A stretch of 64,000 nucleotides of DNA. It comes from Candidatus Limihabitans stercoravium (GTDB taxonomy: Bacteria; Bacillota; Clostridia; Christensenellales; CAG-314). A program made the translations under genes and the position numbers. This document shows, piece by piece, positions 43,859 to 55,434 of the stretch (positions within the stretch are counted from its first letter, which is position 1; each line of letters opens with the position of its first letter). The stretch lies in assembly GCA_018715495.1 (NCBI GenBank), contig DVLO01000008.1:1-64000 (forward strand), written 5' to 3'. The notes beneath the pieces are model-generated. The model was not told the origin of the DNA, ran no database searches, and saw only the letters and a list, made by a program, of their open reading frames with translations.

Positions 43859-44359
43859 ATGAAAAACACAATCAAGATTTTATCACTTGTAGTGGCATTG
43901 ATTGCCATGGTAACACTGTTTGTTGCTTGCGCACCCGAAACTTCGGTAGAAAGCGACGTAAACGTTACATTGCCTGAACTTCAGGAAGGTTACGCTTACC
44001 TTGTAATTTACGAAAAGGATGACGCTCCCTGCACCGTAATGAGTGTGAAAATCGAAGACCTTGAAGACGCTACAGTAATTACAATGTTCAATTACCTTAA
44101 AGAAAACGAAGACCTTCACCTTGTTTCTGGCGACGGTGAATGGGGCGCTTACGTTGACGAAATCGGTAACATCAAGAATGACAGCGCAACCGGTAGCTAT
44201 CTTTACTTCTACACAACAGTTGAAAGCGACTTCGATACATCTGCTTACGTTCAGACAATCAAGGTTGGCGGTCACGACCTTACGAGCAGCGGTGTAGGCG
44301 TTGGCGAAATGAAACTTGAAAGCAAGTGCATCATTTACGTAGGATTGATTACTTACTAA
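43859..44359 (+). CDS. Transcobalamin-like (DUF4430-type) lipoprotein
   Basis: A 166-residue lipoprotein with lipobox LFVAC (cysteine ~25). The mature 140 residues match the pattern of the transcobalamin C-terminal-like fold (DUF4430): a strand, ATVITMFNYLKENEDLHLV, DEIGNIKNDSATGSYLYFYT and a final strand before the end. Placed behind a cobalamin riboswitch and 12 bases before an ECF S component, it probably captures corrinoids at the surface and passes them to the transporter. The role follows from context; the fold assignment is by eye. AAAGGAG precedes the ATG. Confidence 0.82.
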   Translation: MKNTIKILSLVVALIAMVTLFVACAPETSVESDVNVTLPELQEGYAYLVIYEKDDAPCTVMSVKIEDLEDATVITMFNYLKENEDLHLVSGDGEWGAYVDEIGNIKNDSATGSYLYFYTTVESDFDTSAYVQTIKVGGHDLTSSGVGVGEMKLESKCIIYVGLITY

Positions 44360-44371
44360 TAAGGATTTAAT

Positions 44372-44944
44372 ATGACTAACGGCAAGAACACAGCACTGTA
44401 CATCGCAGTAGTTGCGGTGTTCACTGCAATGCTGTCCGGTGGCAAGTTCGCACTGATGGCAATACCCAATGTGGAAGTTGTTACAATTCTGGTTGCATTG
44501 TTTTCCGCAGTTTGGGGGTGGAAGTATTCTATTCCCGCAACGATTATATTTGTAATACTGGAAGTGTTCCTTTGGGGATTCAACACCTGGGTTTTAGAAT
44601 ATTTAATTCATTGGCCCTTTGTTGCGCTGGTGTTCGGTTTGTTGGGAAAGGTTCATTTTAAAAGTAATGCAATGAAACTTATCTGCTTTACTGCCTGCGC
44701 TATGGTCGTTACATTTCTTTTTGGTGTGCAGACCAGCGTTGTGGACACGTTGCTTGCCTACAGCAGCAGTAAGGGGTTCTGGGTGGTAACTAAGGAATTC
44801 TGGTACAGGTTTTCCGTATTGTACCTCAGGGGACTGGTGTTTTTTGTGGTGCACATAATCTCAAATTGCATTCTTTTTACCTGTGCCTATCTTCCGTTGG
44901 AAAAGGTACTTCATTCCATCAAATTAAAGATGCTAAATCAATAA
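44372..44944 (+). CDS. ECF transporter S component, probable cobalamin specificity (CbrT-like)
   Basis: A 190-residue membrane protein with five to six helices, of ECF-type substrate-binding subunits: TALYIAVVAVFTAMLSGGKFALMAIPNVEVVT (in parts) and FSAVWGWKYSIPATIIFVILE are typical of the CbrT/QueT-like group. It would join the shared EcfA/A'/T energising module, which is not in this window. Riboswitch and lipoprotein partner indicate B12 or a precursor as substrate. AAGGAT precedes the ATG. Confidence 0.85.
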   Translation: MTNGKNTALYIAVVAVFTAMLSGGKFALMAIPNVEVVTILVALFSAVWGWKYSIPATIIFVILEVFLWGFNTWVLEYLIHWPFVALVFGLLGKVHFKSNAMKLICFTACAMVVTFLFGVQTSVVDTLLAYSSSKGFWVVTKEFWYRFSVLYLRGLVFFVVHIISNCILFTCAYLPLEKVLHSIKLKMLNQ

Positions 44945-46664: not shown

Positions 46665-47270
46665 TACTTTGTGTTGTATATGTTTGTGTCGGGATGCGAT
46701 TTGTATTGTGGTGTTAAATCTTTTCTTCGTGCAACTTAGCAAATAAAACCATTCGTAAGAAAAAAAATCGTAAAAAATAGTAACACATTTCTGCTAAATA
46801 CATACAATACTTAATATCAACGTCCTGTTGATTCAACAAAATTCAACTTGAAGTTGGAACAAGTCAGCACAAATGTAACAAAAATTGCTTGAAAATAGCC
46901 AAAATTCCTGCATTTGGCAGTAAAAATGCAAAAAAAATGCTGAAAACATGTTGAAAATGCTTGCAAAGTAAAAAAAATTGTGGTAACATTTCAACATTAA
47001 CAACCAAGAGAGTCAAATGGGGTTTGTTAAATTGAAAAAAAATTAACAGGTATTCTCGGCGTTGAAGCGATTAGTCTGAAACTTAATACACAAGTTTTTT
47101 GGTAACTCAGAATCATCTCTGTTTACGCTTCGCCATCCTTTTTTTCGGTTTGACAAGTCTGTAAGGTTGTTTTCTGGGTTTTTTTGTTACACTGAAAACC
47201 CATCCGCCTGTTAGTCAACGTTACAAACGTTTACTATATTTATTTTGAAATTTTTATGGAGGTAACGAAT
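46665..47270 (+). other. Long leader region of the opp operon
   Basis: No gene. A candidate promoter is TTGCAA-17-TAACAT with TG extension (46961-46989), giving a leader of about 275 bases. The leader holds a hairpin GGGTTTT/AAAACCC around 47176-47203. The bases 46740-46960 are strongly A-rich. No known riboswitch was recognised. Confidence 0.45.
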
Positions 47271-49508
47271 ATGAAGAAAGTAAAGTTGCTCGTTGCGATG
47301 TTGCTTGTTCTCATCATGGCTGTGCCATTTGTTCTTACTGCTTGTAAGCCTTCGGGACAAGTTGACCTCAACGACGTTGTGGAGAGAACAGACTATACGT
47401 CGGTATACGATAAGATCGGTTCTAAGGTTACCATTGATATGGTCGAAGAAGATTCTAAAGGTTTAGCCTACGCTACAGTTGACGGAGTTAAGTACGAACT
47501 TGGTATGGACTTCCTGTCCATGGCAATGGTTTACAACACTTCCGTACCTGAAGGTAGTGAAGAGTACGAAACCAAGGAAGACGTCTACAACGAATGGTGG
47601 AAGCTGTACATCCAGAGATGGAATATGCTTGTTCCCGAAGTTCCCTTGTATTCAAATATTTACTACGATGTTTACAACAAGGAAATTGAAGGGCTTGTAA
47701 CAACTCCTTACTGGACACCATCTACGGCTATTGTAGGTGCTACAACTAAAGACTCCGCAGGCGTTGTAAACATGGGTGACGTCACAGACTTGTCCGGTTC
47801 TTTCCGTAACTCAAGTTTCGGTAAGGCTGCTCCTGGTGCAGCTGACCTTGCTGTACAAGAGTTGACAAGTGGTTACAGCACACTTTACACTGATATGAAC
47901 GGTGCTTTCCACTTTGCAGACGGATCTACAATCACCAATGAAGTCGCAGGTAAGCAGTATCAACTCAAATCAGCAGCAGTACTTGCTAAGGCTCCAGAAA
48001 CTTCAACTGACGCTGAAGGTAACATCACATACAAACTTACCATCAATTCCGGATTGAAGTTCAGTGATGGTTCTGCAATCACTGCTAAAAACTACGTTGC
48101 TTCCGTATTGGCATACAGCACAAAGGTTATGGAGGCTGCCGGCGGTAGTGCATCCTCAGGTATGTACTATGTGGGTTACGAAAAATTCAATGCAAACGTT
48201 ACAGGCGGAGCAAGTGCGGTATTCTCTGGTATCAGATTGCTTAGCGACACTGAATTCTCTGTTACTATTTCTAAAGATTACGCAAACTATTACTACGTAG
48301 ACACATATGCAAGTTTCTCACCCGTTCATATGGATATGTACTTTAAGGGTGCGGACATTAAGGACGATGGTAATGGATGCTATATCACAGAACCGTTTTA
48401 TGCAAGCAGCGAAAAGGACGGAATCAAGACTTACGCAATGGCTGAAGTAATCAAGAGCAACATAAACAACACTGACGCTTCGGCAATTCCGTATTCAGGT
48501 CCATATGTAGTTTCTAAGTATGATGCAAGCACTAAGACAGCAACTCTTACTAAGAACGAATACTATACAGGTGACCACCGTGGTAGTGCAGCTATCCAGA
48601 CAATCACATACAACAAGATTGTTTCTGAAACACAGTTGGATCAGCTGAAACAAGGTGAAATTGATATTCTTGCAGGTGTAACAGGTGCTACAGATACAGA
48701 AGCTGCACTTGCTTTGACAAAGGGCGCAGATGCTAAATTTGCAGAAACTCACTATGACCGTGCAGGTTACGGTAAGTTGGCATTCGTTTCCGACTTCGGA
48801 CCTACAATGTTCAAGGAAGTAAGACAAGCTGTTATTTACACAATTAACCGTGAAAAGTTTGCTACAGACTTTACAGGCGGACACGGTGCTGTCGTTCACG
48901 GACCTTACTATACAGGATCTGCACAGTATCAGGCTGTAAAGGATGAAATCAAGTTGAGTACTTACAACCTCAGTGCAGAAAGTGCAATCAAGGTTCTTGA
49001 AGAGGGCGGCTGGATTTACAACGGCGAAGGCAAAGAATTCGATGCATCCAAGGACGCTGTACGTTACAAGAAGTTGAGCGGTTACGAATTGTCTTACGAC
49101 AACCTGAACTTTGCATCTACAGACAACAAGTACAAGACAGTCAAGATTGATGGCGAATACTACATGCCATTGGTAATCAACTGGACAGGTACACAACCCA
49201 ACGAAGTTACAGACCTGCTGATTACAGCATGGCAAACTTCTAAGACTGCAACATCCGACATCGGTATGTACATCACTTACAAATCAGGTGAACTCGACAC
49301 AGCATTGTACGGTGACTATTACCAGATGGCAGAAAGTGGTTTCAATGGAACAGCTCGTTGCGGCGCTGTAAACTTTGCAACAGGATTTACAAGTTCTATT
49401 TACGACTACTCGTTCAACTGGACAATCAATCCTGACTTGTATGCACAGGGCTACAACATGAACATGTTCATGGACGAAGCAGACTTCTTCTCTAATTATT
49501 CCAAGTAA
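47271..49508 (+). CDS. oppA: Oligopeptide ABC transporter, substrate-binding lipoprotein
   Basis: A 745-residue extracellular solute-binding protein of family 5 (SBP_bac_5), tethered by the lipobox VLTAC (cysteine ~25). Features: TYKLTINSGLKFSDGSAITA (the classic KFSDGTPLTA segment), YSGPYVVSKYDASTKTATLT, ITYNKIVSETQLDQLKQGEI and MFKEVRQAVIYTINREKFAT. Normal OppA is ~540 residues; the excess is mainly an N-terminal stretch of ~200 residues before the binding domain. GGAGGT lies ahead of the ATG at 47271. First gene of an operon with two permeases, two ATPases and a small membrane protein; substrates are presumably peptides. Confidence 0.92.
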   Translation: MKKVKLLVAMLLVLIMAVPFVLTACKPSGQVDLNDVVERTDYTSVYDKIGSKVTIDMVEEDSKGLAYATVDGVKYELGMDFLSMAMVYNTSVPEGSEEYETKEDVYNEWWKLYIQRWNMLVPEVPLYSNIYYDVYNKEIEGLVTTPYWTPSTAIVGATTKDSAGVVNMGDVTDLSGSFRNSSFGKAAPGAADLAVQELTSGYSTLYTDMNGAFHFADGSTITNEVAGKQYQLKSAAVLAKAPETSTDAEGNITYKLTINSGLKFSDGSAITAKNYVASVLAYSTKVMEAAGGSASSGMYYVGYEKFNANVTGGASAVFSGIRLLSDTEFSVTISKDYANYYYVDTYASFSPVHMDMYFKGADIKDDGNGCYITEPFYASSEKDGIKTYAMAEVIKSNINNTDASAIPYSGPYVVSKYDASTKTATLTKNEYYTGDHRGSAAIQTITYNKIVSETQLDQLKQGEIDILAGVTGATDTEAALALTKGADAKFAETHYDRAGYGKLAFVSDFGPTMFKEVRQAVIYTINREKFATDFTGGHGAVVHGPYYTGSAQYQAVKDEIKLSTYNLSAESAIKVLEEGGWIYNGEGKEFDASKDAVRYKKLSGYELSYDNLNFASTDNKYKTVKIDGEYYMPLVINWTGTQPNEVTDLLITAWQTSKTATSDIGMYITYKSGELDTALYGDYYQMAESGFNGTARCGAVNFATGFTSSIYDYSFNWTINPDLYAQGYNMNMFMDEADFFSNYSK

Positions 49509-49636: not shown

Positions 49637-50668
49637 ATGGCTAGATATATAATAAAGCGTATATTGTATATACTACTAGTGTTTATTATATTGTCGTTTT
49701 TGGTTTTCGCAATATACAACATGATACCTAACGACAAGGCAGCAGCACAGGCTCGTGCTGAAGTAGCCGCAAATAAAAATCTCAAATATGAAGAAAGATA
49801 TTTGTATTGGCAGCGTACGTATGGGCTAGATGGTAATCTTTTTCAACGCTATTTTCGTTGGTTGGGACTTTATCCTTACACAGCAGTCGACGGTAGTGTG
49901 GGTGCCTTAAACGGAATGTTGCAGGGCAATCTGGGAAGTTCGATAGATAATGGCAGACCTGTTGCTGACTTAATCAAGGAACCAATGAAAAACACAATTT
50001 TCATGAACATATTTGCAACAGTTCTTGCTTTGGGAATTACAATTCCTTTGGGCATCTTCTGTGCTGTAAAGCGTGGTTCTAGGCGTGACGTTGTAGTGCA
50101 GATAGGAACAATTGTCGGTTACAGTATGCCTGTATTCATTGTTGCGATACTGTTCATATGGCTGTTTGCGGTAGTATTGGGGATTTTCCCCGTTTCGGGG
50201 ATGGAAACACCTGGTAATAACTTTACGGGATTTCGTGCTTTTCTGGACAGAATGTACTACATGGCATTGCCTTTGATTGTAATGACATTCTGTTCGTTGG
50301 GCGGTATGACAAGATATGTCCGTGCATCCATGATTGAAGCGTTGTCTCTTGACTGCATCCGCACAGCACGTGCTAAAGGTGTCAAGGAATCGGTGGTTAT
50401 TTACAGCCATGCTTGGCGTAATGCCTTGATTCCCATTGTAACACTGGTAATCGGTTGGTTCTTGAGCATTTTCTCAGGCTCAATCATGATTGAAAACATT
50501 TTCGCCTACAACGGTATCGGCAAGGTGTATTTTACAGCATTGCAAAATTCCGACAACGAAGTAGTTCTTGCACTGCAGATGTTCTACATCTTCATTGCTT
50601 TGGCAGGCAACCTTGTAGTTGACCTTGCTTACGGATTTATTGATCCACGTATTCGTGTGTCTAAATAA
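49637..50668 (+). CDS. oppB: Oligopeptide ABC transporter permease, OppB/DppB type
   Basis: A 343-residue permease with six membrane helices. The start MARYIIKRILYILLVFIILS and the long first outer loop (YWQRTYGLDGNLFQRYFRWL, LQGNLGSSIDNGRPVADLI) are typical for OppB. The EAA loop that docks to the ATPase is SMIEALSLDCIRTARAKGVK. GGAGG ahead of the ATG. Pairs with the OppC-type permease whose gene follows in 14 bases. Confidence 0.95.
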   Translation: MARYIIKRILYILLVFIILSFLVFAIYNMIPNDKAAAQARAEVAANKNLKYEERYLYWQRTYGLDGNLFQRYFRWLGLYPYTAVDGSVGALNGMLQGNLGSSIDNGRPVADLIKEPMKNTIFMNIFATVLALGITIPLGIFCAVKRGSRRDVVVQIGTIVGYSMPVFIVAILFIWLFAVVLGIFPVSGMETPGNNFTGFRAFLDRMYYMALPLIVMTFCSLGGMTRYVRASMIEALSLDCIRTARAKGVKESVVIYSHAWRNALIPIVTLVIGWFLSIFSGSIMIENIFAYNGIGKVYFTALQNSDNEVVLALQMFYIFIALAGNLVVDLAYGFIDPRIRVSK

Positions 50669-50682
50669 GGAGGTGACAACAC

Positions 50683-52722
50683 ATGTCAGATAAAAAGTTA
50701 AATAATATTGACGAATCTAATGTTGTTGTCGATCAGGAACAGACAGCGGACAACAACGAAGTTCAGGCTGAACAGACTGAACTTCAAAAAAAGAACTTCT
50801 TTGCTTCAGTCGGATCGGGCATTGCTAATATCGGCAAGACTGTTTGGCGCTGGATCAAGCGTGCTTTCATGGGTTCACACAAAGAGTTGACTGAAACGGA
50901 AAAATTTAATGTAGAAAACATCGAAAGTCCATTGAAACAGATGACTAAGGAATTCTTCCGACGCAAGATTGCAGTTGTTGCATTGGTAGTGCTTGTGTGT
51001 ATGTTTGCATTTGTGTTTATCGGACCATTGTTTGTTCCGATGGATGTAAATTACACGGATACATTGCAACAAAATATTGCCCCCAATTACACAATGATGA
51101 AAGTGCCTAATGCATTGAAAAATGATATTAAGTCAATTTCAAGTTTTTCAAACTTCTCAGTTGGGTTGAGCAACAGTGGTAAGATGTACATCTGGGGAGA
51201 CACTAAACTAAGATTGGCTGGTGTAGATCTTGCAGATTTTCCTGAGGAAATAAAGGATGACAATGTTGCTTTTGTTTCTGCGGGCAAAGATCACATTGTT
51301 GCAATCACCAAGGAAGGTAAAGTAGTTGCTTGGGGTGCTAACAGTAACGGACAGTACGGCCACACAACAGCAATAGGTGCGGTTGAGATGCCGGAAGAGC
51401 TCATTAGCGGCACTATAGATCCATCGCAGGTTTCTCAGTTGGTTTGTGGATATCAGGTAACTGCGATTGTAATGAAAGACGGTTCGGTTTATGTTTGGGG
51501 TAACGGAGGTACAGTAAAAAATCTTGCTGAAATCGCCCAAATGACTAACGTTGCTAAAATTGAATTCAGTACTGCAACAGCGATGGCCATTCTTAAAGAT
51601 GGTACATTCACCACTGGAAGTAAAGATTATTTTACAAGCGTAGTGTCTTCTGTGAATGGCACTTCCAGTAGTTTGTCCGGTTATTTGAATGGACGTGAAG
51701 TAATAGATGTTGTGGCGGCAGACTATTCGATTGCTTTGCTGCTTGACGGCAACGAACTTGTAATGTCTGGTGTTTTTGAAAACAATGAAGACAAGATCCC
51801 GCAATTGCCCGAAGGAGAGTATTTCACTCAAATTGATGCTGGAACAAGGCATTATGTGGGTGTTACAAATAAAGGTAATTGTTACGGTTGGGGACACAGT
51901 TTCTACGGTCAGGCTGGATTCGATCCGGATAGTGGTGCATCCAAGGTTTTTGCCGGTGCAATGCAGACTTATGTGGTAAACGAAAGTGATGATTTGATCG
52001 CAACTCATGGGCTCAAGGGCTACTTGATGGGCACTGACGGTTCCGGAAGAGATATATTCACACGTATAGTACATGGTGGTAAGATGACAATGACAGTCGG
52101 TGCTGTAGCCGTTATCGTATCCTCCATCATTGCTATAATCATTGGATGCTTGTCCGGCTACTTTGGCGGTTGGGTAGATATGTTGTTGATGCGTATAACT
52201 GAAATTTTTGCATCAATTCCATTCCTTCCTTTCGCAATGATGCTTTCACTGGTAATCAGAAACTACCCTGTTGACGAAACAACTAGAATTGTAATCATCA
52301 TGGTTATGCTGGGATTGTTGAGTTGGACGGGGCTTGCCCGTATGATAAGAGGTCAGGTTCTTGCCGAACGTGAAAAAGAATTTGTAATTGCCGCCAAGGC
52401 TATGGGTATAAAAGAAAATAGAATCGCATTTAAACATATTCTTCCCAATGTAATTTCGGTAATTTTGGTAAGTATGACACTGTCCTTTGCAGGATGTCTG
52501 TTAACAGAATCTTCGCTGTCGTACCTTGGATTCGGCGTTCAGCAACCACAACCTACCTGGGGTAATATGTTAAACGGTGCAAACAATAGTATTGTTATTC
52601 AAAATTATTGGTGGCAATGGCTTTTCCCCGCTCTATTTTTGGCGATTGCAACGATATCTATCAATATTATAGGTGATACGTTGCGTGATGTACTGGATCC
52701 CAAGAGTTCGTTGGATAAGTAA
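50683..52722 (+). CDS. oppC: OppC-type ABC permease with an inserted RCC1-like beta-propeller
   Basis: A 679-residue permease, over twice the usual ~300. The cytosolic N-terminus (~1-92) is acidic. TM1 is at ~95-118 (IAVVALVVLVCMFAFVFIGP). Residues ~150-443 are not OppC: they form seven repeats of the RCC1 type, each ending in a Gly/Trp-Gly turn (GKMYIWGD, GKVVAWGANSNGQYG, GSVYVWGN, GTFTTGS, NELVMSG, GNCYGWGHSFYGQAG, DDLIATH) after an alternating VSAGKDHIVAITK-like strand pair. Normal OppC resumes with LMGTDGSGRDIFTRIVHGG, then helices 2-6 and the EAA loop EKEFVIAAKAMGIKENRIA. The propeller therefore sits on the outer face. Seven repeats are what a closed propeller needs. AGGAGGTGA precedes the ATG. 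Confidence 0.92.
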   Translation: MSDKKLNNIDESNVVVDQEQTADNNEVQAEQTELQKKNFFASVGSGIANIGKTVWRWIKRAFMGSHKELTETEKFNVENIESPLKQMTKEFFRRKIAVVALVVLVCMFAFVFIGPLFVPMDVNYTDTLQQNIAPNYTMMKVPNALKNDIKSISSFSNFSVGLSNSGKMYIWGDTKLRLAGVDLADFPEEIKDDNVAFVSAGKDHIVAITKEGKVVAWGANSNGQYGHTTAIGAVEMPEELISGTIDPSQVSQLVCGYQVTAIVMKDGSVYVWGNGGTVKNLAEIAQMTNVAKIEFSTATAMAILKDGTFTTGSKDYFTSVVSSVNGTSSSLSGYLNGREVIDVVAADYSIALLLDGNELVMSGVFENNEDKIPQLPEGEYFTQIDAGTRHYVGVTNKGNCYGWGHSFYGQAGFDPDSGASKVFAGAMQTYVVNESDDLIATHGLKGYLMGTDGSGRDIFTRIVHGGKMTMTVGAVAVIVSSIIAIIIGCLSGYFGGWVDMLLMRITEIFASIPFLPFAMMLSLVIRNYPVDETTRIVIIMVMLGLLSWTGLARMIRGQVLAEREKEFVIAAKAMGIKENRIAFKHILPNVISVILVSMTLSFAGCLLTESSLSYLGFGVQQPQPTWGNMLNGANNSIVIQNYWWQWLFPALFLAIATISINIIGDTLRDVLDPKSSLDK

Positions 52723-52733
52723 GGAGGTATAAA

Positions 52734-53846
52734 ATGGCATTACTAGAAGTAAAAAATCTTCATACTTATTTTGAAACTCGTAAGGGTACCGTCAAGGCGG
52801 TAAACGACGTATCGTATACCGTCGAACCGGGCAGAACGCTTGGTGTTGTGGGCGAAAGCGGTAGCGGTAAGTCGGTATCGGCAATGAGCATATTGCAACT
52901 GCTGGATGGCAACGGCTACATTGCAGGCGGAGAAATACTGTTCAACATCGAAAAGGATGGTGAGCAACACATAGTTGATCTTACTAAGTTAAAGGCAGAA
53001 ACCAAGGAAAAACATCACGGTAAGAAACAACAGCCTTCCGATGAAAACACAGATACTGCAGGTCTTAGCATGTATGACATCAGAGGAAATTACATTTCGG
53101 TAATTTTCCAGGAACCCATGACAAGTTTGAATCCGGTGTTTACAATTTCCAGACAGTTGAGTGAACCTTTTATCATTCACCAGCACCTCAGCAAAAAAGA
53201 GGCTGCCAAGAAAGCTGTCGAGATGCTTGCGGCAGTACAAATTCCCAACCCCGAAGAGGTTGCAAGACAGTATCCTCACCAACTTTCGGGTGGTATGCGT
53301 CAGCGTGTCATGATTGCAATGGCGCTGGCTTGTAAGCCAAAGATCCTGATTGCGGATGAACCTACAACAGCTTTGGACGTTACTATACAGGCGCAGATAT
53401 TGCACCTGATGAATGAGTTGCAACGTGAAAACGGCACATCAATCATCTTCATTACTCACGACCTGGGCGTAATCAATCAGATGGCGGACGACGTAGTTGT
53501 AATGTACTGCGGGCAGGTTGTGGAAAAGGCCCCTGCAAGAGTTATTTTCTCCAATTGTAAGGTGAGTCACCCTTATACCGAAGGTCTGATGTATTCTATT
53601 CCACGTATAGACAACATTACAGACAGGCTTGAACCTATTCCTGGAACTGTACCTCACCCGTTGGCACTGCCTAAGGGATGTAAATTTGCTCCCCGTTGTA
53701 AGTATTGCACGAAAAAGTGTATGGAAGAGGAACCCACATTGCAAGAGGTTGCACCAAATCAATTGGTAAGATGTTTTTATCCCGACAAGGAGGTGAGGAA
53801 GAGTGAACAACACAAGAAAGAAGTTGTTATCAATAAAGAATCTTAA
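52734..53846 (+). CDS. oppD: Oligopeptide ABC transporter ATPase, OppD type
   Basis: A 370-residue ATPase that powers the permease pair from the cytosol. Walker A GESGSGKS (~40-47), Q-loop FQEPMTSLNP (~125-134), signature LSGGMRQR, Walker B KILIADEPTTALD, H-loop THDLGV, and the oligopeptide C-terminal domain with cysteines (CKFAPRCKYCTKKC). A hydrophilic insertion of ~40 residues (72-113, with KEKHHGKKQQPSDEN) precedes the Q-loop, smaller than but in the same place as that of OppF. GGAGG before the ATG; overlaps OppF by 44 bases. Confidence 0.95.
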   Translation: MALLEVKNLHTYFETRKGTVKAVNDVSYTVEPGRTLGVVGESGSGKSVSAMSILQLLDGNGYIAGGEILFNIEKDGEQHIVDLTKLKAETKEKHHGKKQQPSDENTDTAGLSMYDIRGNYISVIFQEPMTSLNPVFTISRQLSEPFIIHQHLSKKEAAKKAVEMLAAVQIPNPEEVARQYPHQLSGGMRQRVMIAMALACKPKILIADEPTTALDVTIQAQILHLMNELQRENGTSIIFITHDLGVINQMADDVVVMYCGQVVEKAPARVIFSNCKVSHPYTEGLMYSIPRIDNITDRLEPIPGTVPHPLALPKGCKFAPRCKYCTKKCMEEEPTLQEVAPNQLVRCFYPDKEVRKSEQHKKEVVINKES

Positions 53847-55434
53847 AAAATACTTCCCTATCGCCAAGTCGAGTATTTTTCAGAAAGAACAACTGTATGT
53901 AAGAGCGAATGAAGACGTTTCGTTTGACGTTTATGAAGGTGAAACAATTGGTATTGTAGGCGAATCGGGATGTGGTAAGTCTACTTTGGGACGTGTAATA
54001 CTTCAACTTTATGAACAAACTGCCGGAAGTACGATGTATTACGGTAGAAGCCGTTCGGACTTTGCTCCTAAATATGTGGAACGTACTTTGAAAAATTCCA
54101 AGAAATACATTGAGAAGTACAACAAAGCACGTTTGAAAGCTGAGGAAGCGGAAAAGAAATGCGAAGAATTGGGTGAAAATGCTACATTCTTCCAATTGCA
54201 GGACAAGAACCTTGCGGTGGCTGAAATGAACACTGCGTTGCACAATGTGGCTTCCGTACTTGGTGGTTTCATGGGACTTGATGATCCCACGCAGGGAGCG
54301 GATTTGTTGCTTCGCAGACACAGGGTTCACGTTAAGGTTGCGCAGATCAAACACAAGCTCAATTCATTAGCTACCGAATTGGATATGCTTGAAGGTAAAA
54401 TCAAGGCGGAACAAGAAAAACCCGAAAGTAAAAAACTTAAAGGCTTGCAAACGGCTTTGGCAAAAACAAAAGAAAAAGAAGCTCTTTTGAATGCAGAATT
54501 GGAAAAGTCTCAGTCTGAACGTGCTGTCTTGCGTGAAGAACTTGCAAATGCCCTTGAAAAATATAAGGACAACGACCAGTTCCAATATTACCAACAGTTT
54601 GTCGACACGGGTATTGACCTTGCCCGTCTGACATACAATGAAATGCGTTTGTTGCGTAGAGACTTGCAGATCATTTTCCAGGATCCTTATTCTTCGCTCA
54701 ATCCACGTATGACAATCGGTCAGATCATTGAAGAAGGCCTTGTTACTCACAAGTTTTACAAGCACGGATCTGAAAGTATGAAACAGTACATTTTGAAAGT
54801 AATGAATGACTGTGGATTGCAGGATTACATGATCCACCGTTATCCTCACCAATTCAGTGGCGGACAACGTCAGCGTATCTGTATTGCTCGTGCATTGGCT
54901 GTAAAACCCAAGTTTGTTGTTTGTGACGAATGTGTTTCGGCATTGGACGTTTCAATTCAGTCGCAGATCATCAACCTGTTGTTGGAACTGAAGGAACGTG
55001 AAGGGCTGACATACCTGTTTATTTCGCACGACTTGTCGGTAGTGCGCTATATCTCCGACAGAATTTGTGTAATGTATCTTGGTAACATCGTGGAATTTGC
55101 CGACGCTAAAACGTTGTTCGAAGATCCACGCCATCCTTATACATTGGCATTGTTGTCAAGTATTCCTACAACCGATCCCGACGGGCTTAACAAGGAAAGT
55201 ATCCTGTTGGAAGGAAATATCCCAAGCCCAATTCGTCCTCCTCAAGGTTGTAAGTTCCACACACGTTGCTACATGGCTACCGAACAGTGTAAACGTGTAC
55301 CGCCTCCATTGGTTGATCTTGGCGACGGTCACTTGGTCGCTTGTCACAATTGTGCAAGAAAGATAGATGAGAATGGAAATTACTTGTTTAAAGTTCCATC
55401 TACCAGAAAGAATTCTAAATCAGAGGTAAAGTGA
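53803..55434 (+). CDS. oppF: Oligopeptide ABC transporter ATPase, OppF type, with coiled-coil insertion
   Basis: A 543-residue ATPase (normally ~320). Walker A GESGCGKST (~53-61), signature FSGGQRQRICIARA, Walker B FVVCDECVSALDV (proline of the usual CDEPVSALD is a cysteine) and H-loop SHDLSV are intact, as is the C-terminal cysteine domain (CKFHTRCYMATEQC). Between Walker A and the Q-loop (FQDPYSSLNPR, ~292) lies a charged insertion of ~190 residues (82-278) made mostly of long helices (KNSKKYIEKYNKARLKAEEA, MLEGKIKAEQEKPESKKL, NAELEKSQSERAVLREELA), likely a coiled coil. It would project from the helical subdomain. GTG start with AAGGAGGTGAGG. Confidence 0.95.
   Translation: MNNTRKKLLSIKNLKKYFPIAKSSIFQKEQLYVRANEDVSFDVYEGETIGIVGESGCGKSTLGRVILQLYEQTAGSTMYYGRSRSDFAPKYVERTLKNSKKYIEKYNKARLKAEEAEKKCEELGENATFFQLQDKNLAVAEMNTALHNVASVLGGFMGLDDPTQGADLLLRRHRVHVKVAQIKHKLNSLATELDMLEGKIKAEQEKPESKKLKGLQTALAKTKEKEALLNAELEKSQSERAVLREELANALEKYKDNDQFQYYQQFVDTGIDLARLTYNEMRLLRRDLQIIFQDPYSSLNPRMTIGQIIEEGLVTHKFYKHGSESMKQYILKVMNDCGLQDYMIHRYPHQFSGGQRQRICIARALAVKPKFVVCDECVSALDVSIQSQIINLLLELKEREGLTYLFISHDLSVVRYISDRICVMYLGNIVEFADAKTLFEDPRHPYTLALLSSIPTTDPDGLNKESILLEGNIPSPIRPPQGCKFHTRCYMATEQCKRVPPPLVDLGDGHLVACHNCARKIDENGNYLFKVPSTRKNSKSEVK

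Follow-up and report, generated by a model that had tools for sequence, protein, structure and literature searches.

An Opp-type importer of gut Clostridia with a predicted RCC1-like propeller in OppC and a circularly permuted substrate-binding protein

Domain insertions in ABC permease loops and RCC1 propellers are each already known. Among oligopeptide importers, E. coli OppBCDF (8z21) has the same operon set as the locus described here, and its whole canonical OppC fold aligns with our protein at 38% identity. In the described OppC and DppC structures (8z21; M. tuberculosis OppABCD, 8j5q-t) the loop between TM1 and the GTD segment is short, whereas in our protein it holds a propeller of ~300 amino acids. 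The seven-bladed RCC1-like fold of this propeller is shared with BLIP-II (1jtd, 3qhy), UVR8, HERC2 and RPGR, but these are free-standing or found in other contexts and are only ~20-23% identical to the propeller, which here is part of a permease. BLIP-II is a secreted protein binder and a protein-binding scaffold (PMC9218822). In the maltose transporter, a binding-protein-dependent permease likewise has an extracytoplasmic domain in one of its loops, MalF P2; according to the titles of two studies cited in PMC3328499, this domain is reported to interact with the maltose-binding protein during the entire cycle (Daus 2009, Grote 2009). A natural circular permutation of a substrate-binding lipoprotein is known from the glucose-binding protein TpMglB-2 (PMC4990184), a type I/cluster B sugar binder in which strands of the N-lobe have moved to the C-terminus. 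The substrate-binding protein (SBP) described below differs from it in being, by sequence, of the family-5 peptide type and in having a C-terminal segment relocated to the N-terminus.

The window analyzed here is a stretch of 64,000 nucleotides from Candidatus Limihabitans stercoravium (contig DVLO01000008.1). It contains the following features, given with their coordinates, strand and supporting evidence.

47256..49508, + strand: family-5 substrate-binding lipoprotein (OppA-like), circularly permuted (PF00496)
47352..47765, + strand: permuted SBP segment, N-terminal here and C-terminal in canonical OppA and 37 orthologues (profile match to 9p48_A)
49637..50668, + strand: OppB-type permease (PF00528, PF19300)
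50683..52722, + strand: OppC-type permease with an inserted RCC1/BLIP-II-like propeller, 679 aa (Pfam, AlphaFold2, structure comparison)
50683..51033, + strand: cytoplasmic N-tail (predicted helix aa 22-63) and TM1 (helix aa 95-117) of OppC, aa 1-117
51106..52011, + strand: seven-repeat RCC1-like beta-propeller, predicted extracellular, aa ~142-443 (Pfam, AlphaFold2 strands, BLIP-II and UVR8 matches)
52018..52059, + strand: conserved segment GYLMGTDGSGRDIF, where canonical OppC resumes, aa 446-459 (invariant residues in 68 homologues)
52054..52707, + strand: rest of the transmembrane domain (TMD) with the EAA-type loop AAKAMGIKENRIAFKHILPN, aa 458-675 (PF00528; E. coli OppC alignment)
52734..53846, + strand: OppD-type ATPase (Pfam, NCBIfam)
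53803..55434, + strand: OppF-type ATPase in which a long insert separates Walker A from the signature region (Pfam, NCBIfam); coordinates use the first start codon, and the true start may be later

The OppC gene is a single open frame without internal stops. Its product matches OppC_N (PF12911) at aa 82-134 (41.1 bits, cut-off 23.9), RCC1_2 (PF13540; E 1e-25, 89.2 bits, cut-off 22), RCC1 (PF00415; 29.7 bits, cut-off 21.7) and BPD_transp_1 (PF00528) at aa 484-674 (119.8 bits, cut-off 26.4). The initial annotation of this gene had proposed PF00415, PF13540 and PF00528 as a check, and all three match above their cut-offs. The RCC1-like domain WD40_RLD was also matched at aa ~139-430 (E 4e-32), with 112.3 bits under its own cut-off of 150. 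A PF00415 profile search of the window's own genome gave no match, which is uninformative since hmmscan matches PF00415 in this very protein. The EAA-type loop is legible in the sequence, and residues G446, G450, D452 and G455 are invariant across 68 homologues. The nearest NCBIfam subtype is the Opp4C equivalog (NF045476), and we withhold this subtype name because its score of 304.9 bits is below the cut-off of 350. In sequence comparisons the insert matches UVR8, HERC2, RPGR, RCC1 and BLIP-II (best E 5e-27) and the permease part matches E. coli OppC (E 2e-53). PDB permease matches start at aa ~422-445 of our protein, which corresponds to chain residues 40-80.

An AlphaFold2 model built on an alignment of 68 family sequences, from the window and related loci, has a mean pLDDT of 83.5, with the propeller at ~93 and mostly between 84 and 96. 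The prediction shows seven three-strand repeats that begin at aa 149, 195, 250, 290, 340, 381 and 421. Comparison with known structures using VIA-align 2 aligned the propeller with BLIP-II (1jtd_B; Z 26.1, rmsd 2.5, 253 residues), its best bacterial structural match, and with UVR8 (Z ~25). Residues 80-673 of the model align with all 278 of the 278 residues of E. coli OppC (8z21_B; Z 30.1, rmsd 2.6). From the strand triplets and the Z scores of 25-26, the propeller is predicted to close into a ring of seven blades, and the model and structure alignments together indicate that a complete permease harbours a complete propeller. These results bear out the initial annotation, which had placed seven RCC1-type repeats at residues ~150-443 between TM1 and the GTDxxGRD segment of a permease with intact membrane parts: the model gives seven strand triplets in an insert at aa ~142-443, the Pfam order, model and PDB comparison agree on the insertion point, and OppC_N and BPD_transp_1 are both above cut-off. 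The TM1-TM2 loop of OppC is external. Based on this known topology and on the basic residues preceding TM1, we infer that the propeller is on the outer side of the membrane, beside the SBP-docking surface. The protein also has an extra cytoplasmic N-tail of ~80 aa, whose helix-bearing part (aa 1-64, window positions 50683-50874) contains a long predicted helix at aa 22-63, with low model confidence and low conservation.

OppC proteins with an RCC1 propeller are a widespread and conserved family. At least 80 loci in GTDB genomes encode full-length relatives, and their hosts are nearly all metagenome-assembled genomes of gut Clostridia, with labels such as Oscillospiraceae, Christensenellaceae and Lachnospiraceae. 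Identities range from 35 to 98% across the 80 loci and further loci from genome searches. Counting the window's own genome, the protein is present in 25 of 297 genomes of the order and in 14 of 398 genomes sampled across the phylum. RCC1_2, WD40_RLD and BPD_transp_1 were found by Pfam in each of the 68 members scanned and OppC_N in 66 of them, while the propeller span is steady in length (290-343 aa between P134 and T450 in 68 members). Nearly all orthologous loci have the gene order SBP-OppB-OppC-OppD-OppF, which is retained on every contig of sufficient length. With at least 80 loci encoding it, the OppC architecture can be put down neither to chance nor to an error of assembly. A frameshift joining two genes, which the initial annotation had raised, was looked for and none was found; with one open frame and the same architecture in many assemblies, we rule out a frameshift, a chimeric contig or a gene fusion error, and the probability of such an artefact is practically negligible.

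When only the permease domain was used as a query, the matches formed one group at 52% identity or above, with frames all of 620-823 aa, which is the RCC1 family, and a second group at 46% or below with very different frame lengths. In a tree of 138 permease domains, the RCC1-bearing permeases are all on one side of a single branch (support 99/94). This tree is consistent with the propeller having been acquired once by OppC. No RCC1 domain was found in the sister OppCs examined, which are part of ~55 low-identity matches; those of ~364-397 aa are too short for one and the longer ones that we read hold other inserts. These other inserts are at the same point of the loop and range from ~60 to more than 500 aa. 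Many of them contain a repeat unit of ~50 aa with the pattern F..A...A...G...F.Y.G..Y.I, in one to five copies according to an iterated profile. Since sister OppCs bear other inserts at the same point, the TM1-GTD loop of OppC in gut Clostridia looks like a modular site. Sister OppCs with repeat inserts, built from units of ~50-70 aa in variable copy number, include loci L010, L167, L169, L170, L172-L178, L181 and L182, and the insert of L010 has no Pfam match. A more distant OppC group (L025, L026, L027 and L030) has an insert of ~230 aa in the TM1-GTD loop, also with no Pfam match.

The second unusual component of this operon is the SBP. It is a lipoprotein, with Cys25 of the aligned sequence invariant in 53, and its core matches PF00496 with 111.3 bits (cut-off 32.4). 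Its profile matches OppA 9p48_A with E 6e-42, but its N-terminal segment matches residues 504-558 of the 562 residues of 9p48_A (E 3.2e-5). Using profiles of the segment and of the core, we located the segment at the N-terminus in 54 of 91 SBP orthologues and at the C-terminus in the other 37, all 91 coming from RCC1-OppC operons. Loci with the canonical order include L090, L091, L093, L097, L099, L100, L102, L103 and L122. The AlphaFold2 model of the window's SBP has a mean pLDDT of 92.4. Sequential structural alignments of this model with ~50 SBPs begin near model residue 140-165 and end ~50-70 residues short of the C-termini of the reference SBPs, a pattern expected from circular permutation. 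An alignment error is rejected as the source of the permutation, since some orthologues have the segment at one end and some at the other, with E values down to 1e-34, and since canonical OppA 9p48 has it at the C-terminus.

Permuted SBPs form one clade in the tree of SBP cores (SH-aLRT 97), while the permease tree alone places their operons in two groups with weak support (92/53). A single permutation event is more likely to account for this pattern, given that all permuted SBPs fall within one clade of the SBP tree. We found no orthologue with the segment at both ends that could represent an intermediate. The propeller occurs with both SBP orders, so OppC probably gained it before the permutation arose.

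The most likely role of the propeller would be that of a platform outside the cell on which the SBP docks. On the permease tree, an Opp-type peptide importer gained a seven-bladed propeller of the RCC1/BLIP-II type once, in the outer loop of OppC after TM1; this propeller would dock and retain the lipid-anchored SBP above the OppB-OppC pore, as MalF P2 does with the maltose-binding protein. An SBP held in this way would deliver peptides efficiently. MalF P2 and the OppC propeller differ in fold, subunit type and loop. Contact with the SBP is reported for MalF P2 in the studies mentioned above, whereas for the OppC propeller we infer it. The permutation found in one large clade of SBPs would shift the lipid anchor and may adapt the SBP to the docking geometry, and the combination of propeller-bearing OppC and permuted SBP probably changes how the SBP docks on the pump. 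We favor docking based on the location of the propeller on the SBP side, the protein-binding scaffold of BLIP-II, the precedent of MalF P2 and covariation of evolutionary rates, and give it about an even chance of being correct.

Rate covariation was measured from branch rates on a fixed tree as partial correlation after removing OppB and the TMD. Partial r between propeller and SBP was 0.39 for all operons (permutation p 0.0002), 0.50 for those with permuted SBPs only (p 0.0002) and 0.35 for canonical ones only (p 0.014), whereas values between the propeller and its own TMD were 0.18, 0.07 and 0.20, respectively. Pairwise distances gave 0.63 for propeller and SBP versus 0.05 for propeller and TMD. 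The covariation ranges from 0.23 to 0.49 depending on the transformation, with weaker values for ranks (0.24) and logarithms (0.23). This covariation and the conserved operon lend indirect support to docking. However, the SBP covaries with OppB as strongly as with the propeller, and shared surface exposure and fast evolution may suffice to explain the covariation of propeller and SBP without contact. Docking also has to contend with canonical Opp systems, which dock their SBPs without such a domain, and with the same RCC1-OppC type accompanying both permuted and canonical SBPs; the pairing with both orders also means that the propeller does not require the permutation.

The initial annotation had suggested that the propeller might hold the binding lipoprotein, screen peptides or bind the cell wall, and we found no evidence specific to peptide screening or wall binding. 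Binding of the cell wall or surface polymers could anchor the transporter or space it within the envelope. This would agree with the extracellular position of the propeller and with the repeat-built inserts of sister OppCs, which are very variable in size as spacers might be, but Pfam detects no wall-binding module, the size of the propeller is conserved and its rates covary with those of the SBP, making this role improbable. The propeller could also bind a peptide or another ligand via its central channel, as a pre-filter or a second site. In favor of such a role, the polar and invariant or near-invariant residues H204, Q258, H390, Q428 and N274 recur at equivalent places of several blades; yet these are largely positions of the generic RCC1 repeat (G-x-x-H ... 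W-G), where they may serve the fold, and we consider direct ligand binding unlikely as well. Quite unlikely is a defensive or decoy role, in which the propeller would protect the importer from phages, proteases or competitors or diversify the surface exposed to them: although divergence of the RCC1 part is ~3 times that of the TMD (mean distance 1.26 versus 0.40) and unrelated inserts are present in the same loop of sister OppCs, the core positions of the propeller are strongly conserved and the 25 close TMD relatives identified within the order all retain it. These three alternative roles share most of the probability left by docking.

Docking can be extended to a broader and decidedly tentative proposal. 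The propeller-bearing OppC and the SBP may together capture substrate outside the cell as a co-evolving, possibly permanent unit. The SBP would be gripped by the propeller, with its lipid anchor moved by the permutation to a fitting position, and the outer loop would be a modular site where either an RCC1 propeller or a module of ~50-70 aa repeats sets SBP engagement.

An OppC combined with RCC1, the conservation and single origin of this combination, and a permuted partner SBP seem to be undescribed, although an earlier notice is possible. In line with the novelty suggested in the initial annotation, we found no paper with both RCC1 and OppC among 5.39 million in an open library. Searches of the open literature, with subscription journals mostly outside their scope, returned nothing relevant on RCC1 together with permease, OppC or oligopeptide, or on a permuted OppA, and no description of a permuted peptide-type SBP. 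These peptide-type importers of uncultured gut Clostridia, with normal and permuted SBP orders among orthologues, offer a natural experiment on how SBPs dock to ABC importers in bacteria whose SBPs are lipid-tethered, and on how a permutation arises in a working system. Recognition of the family also corrects annotation of genes that might pass for RCC1 proteins or for wrongly joined permeases.

Additional observations were made in the window and in related operons. A small lipoprotein-like gene and an adjoining 190-aa membrane protein resembling an ECF transporter S component are located at 43859-44944, with no Pfam match above cut-off for either. In one subclade of operons OppD is ~52-65% identical to that of the window, compared to ~70-78% in other operons, while OppB and OppC are not likewise divergent (L055, L062-L065, L067, L068, L070, L072, L073 and similar loci). 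This hints at ATPase replacement or relaxed constraint. In OppF of the window (53803-55434), the insert from Walker A to the Q-loop/signature is long, charged and probably a coiled coil. Many OppF frames of the family are 520-604 aa, which suggests conservation of this insert; a similar length is also seen in the Mycoplasma-type OppF model.
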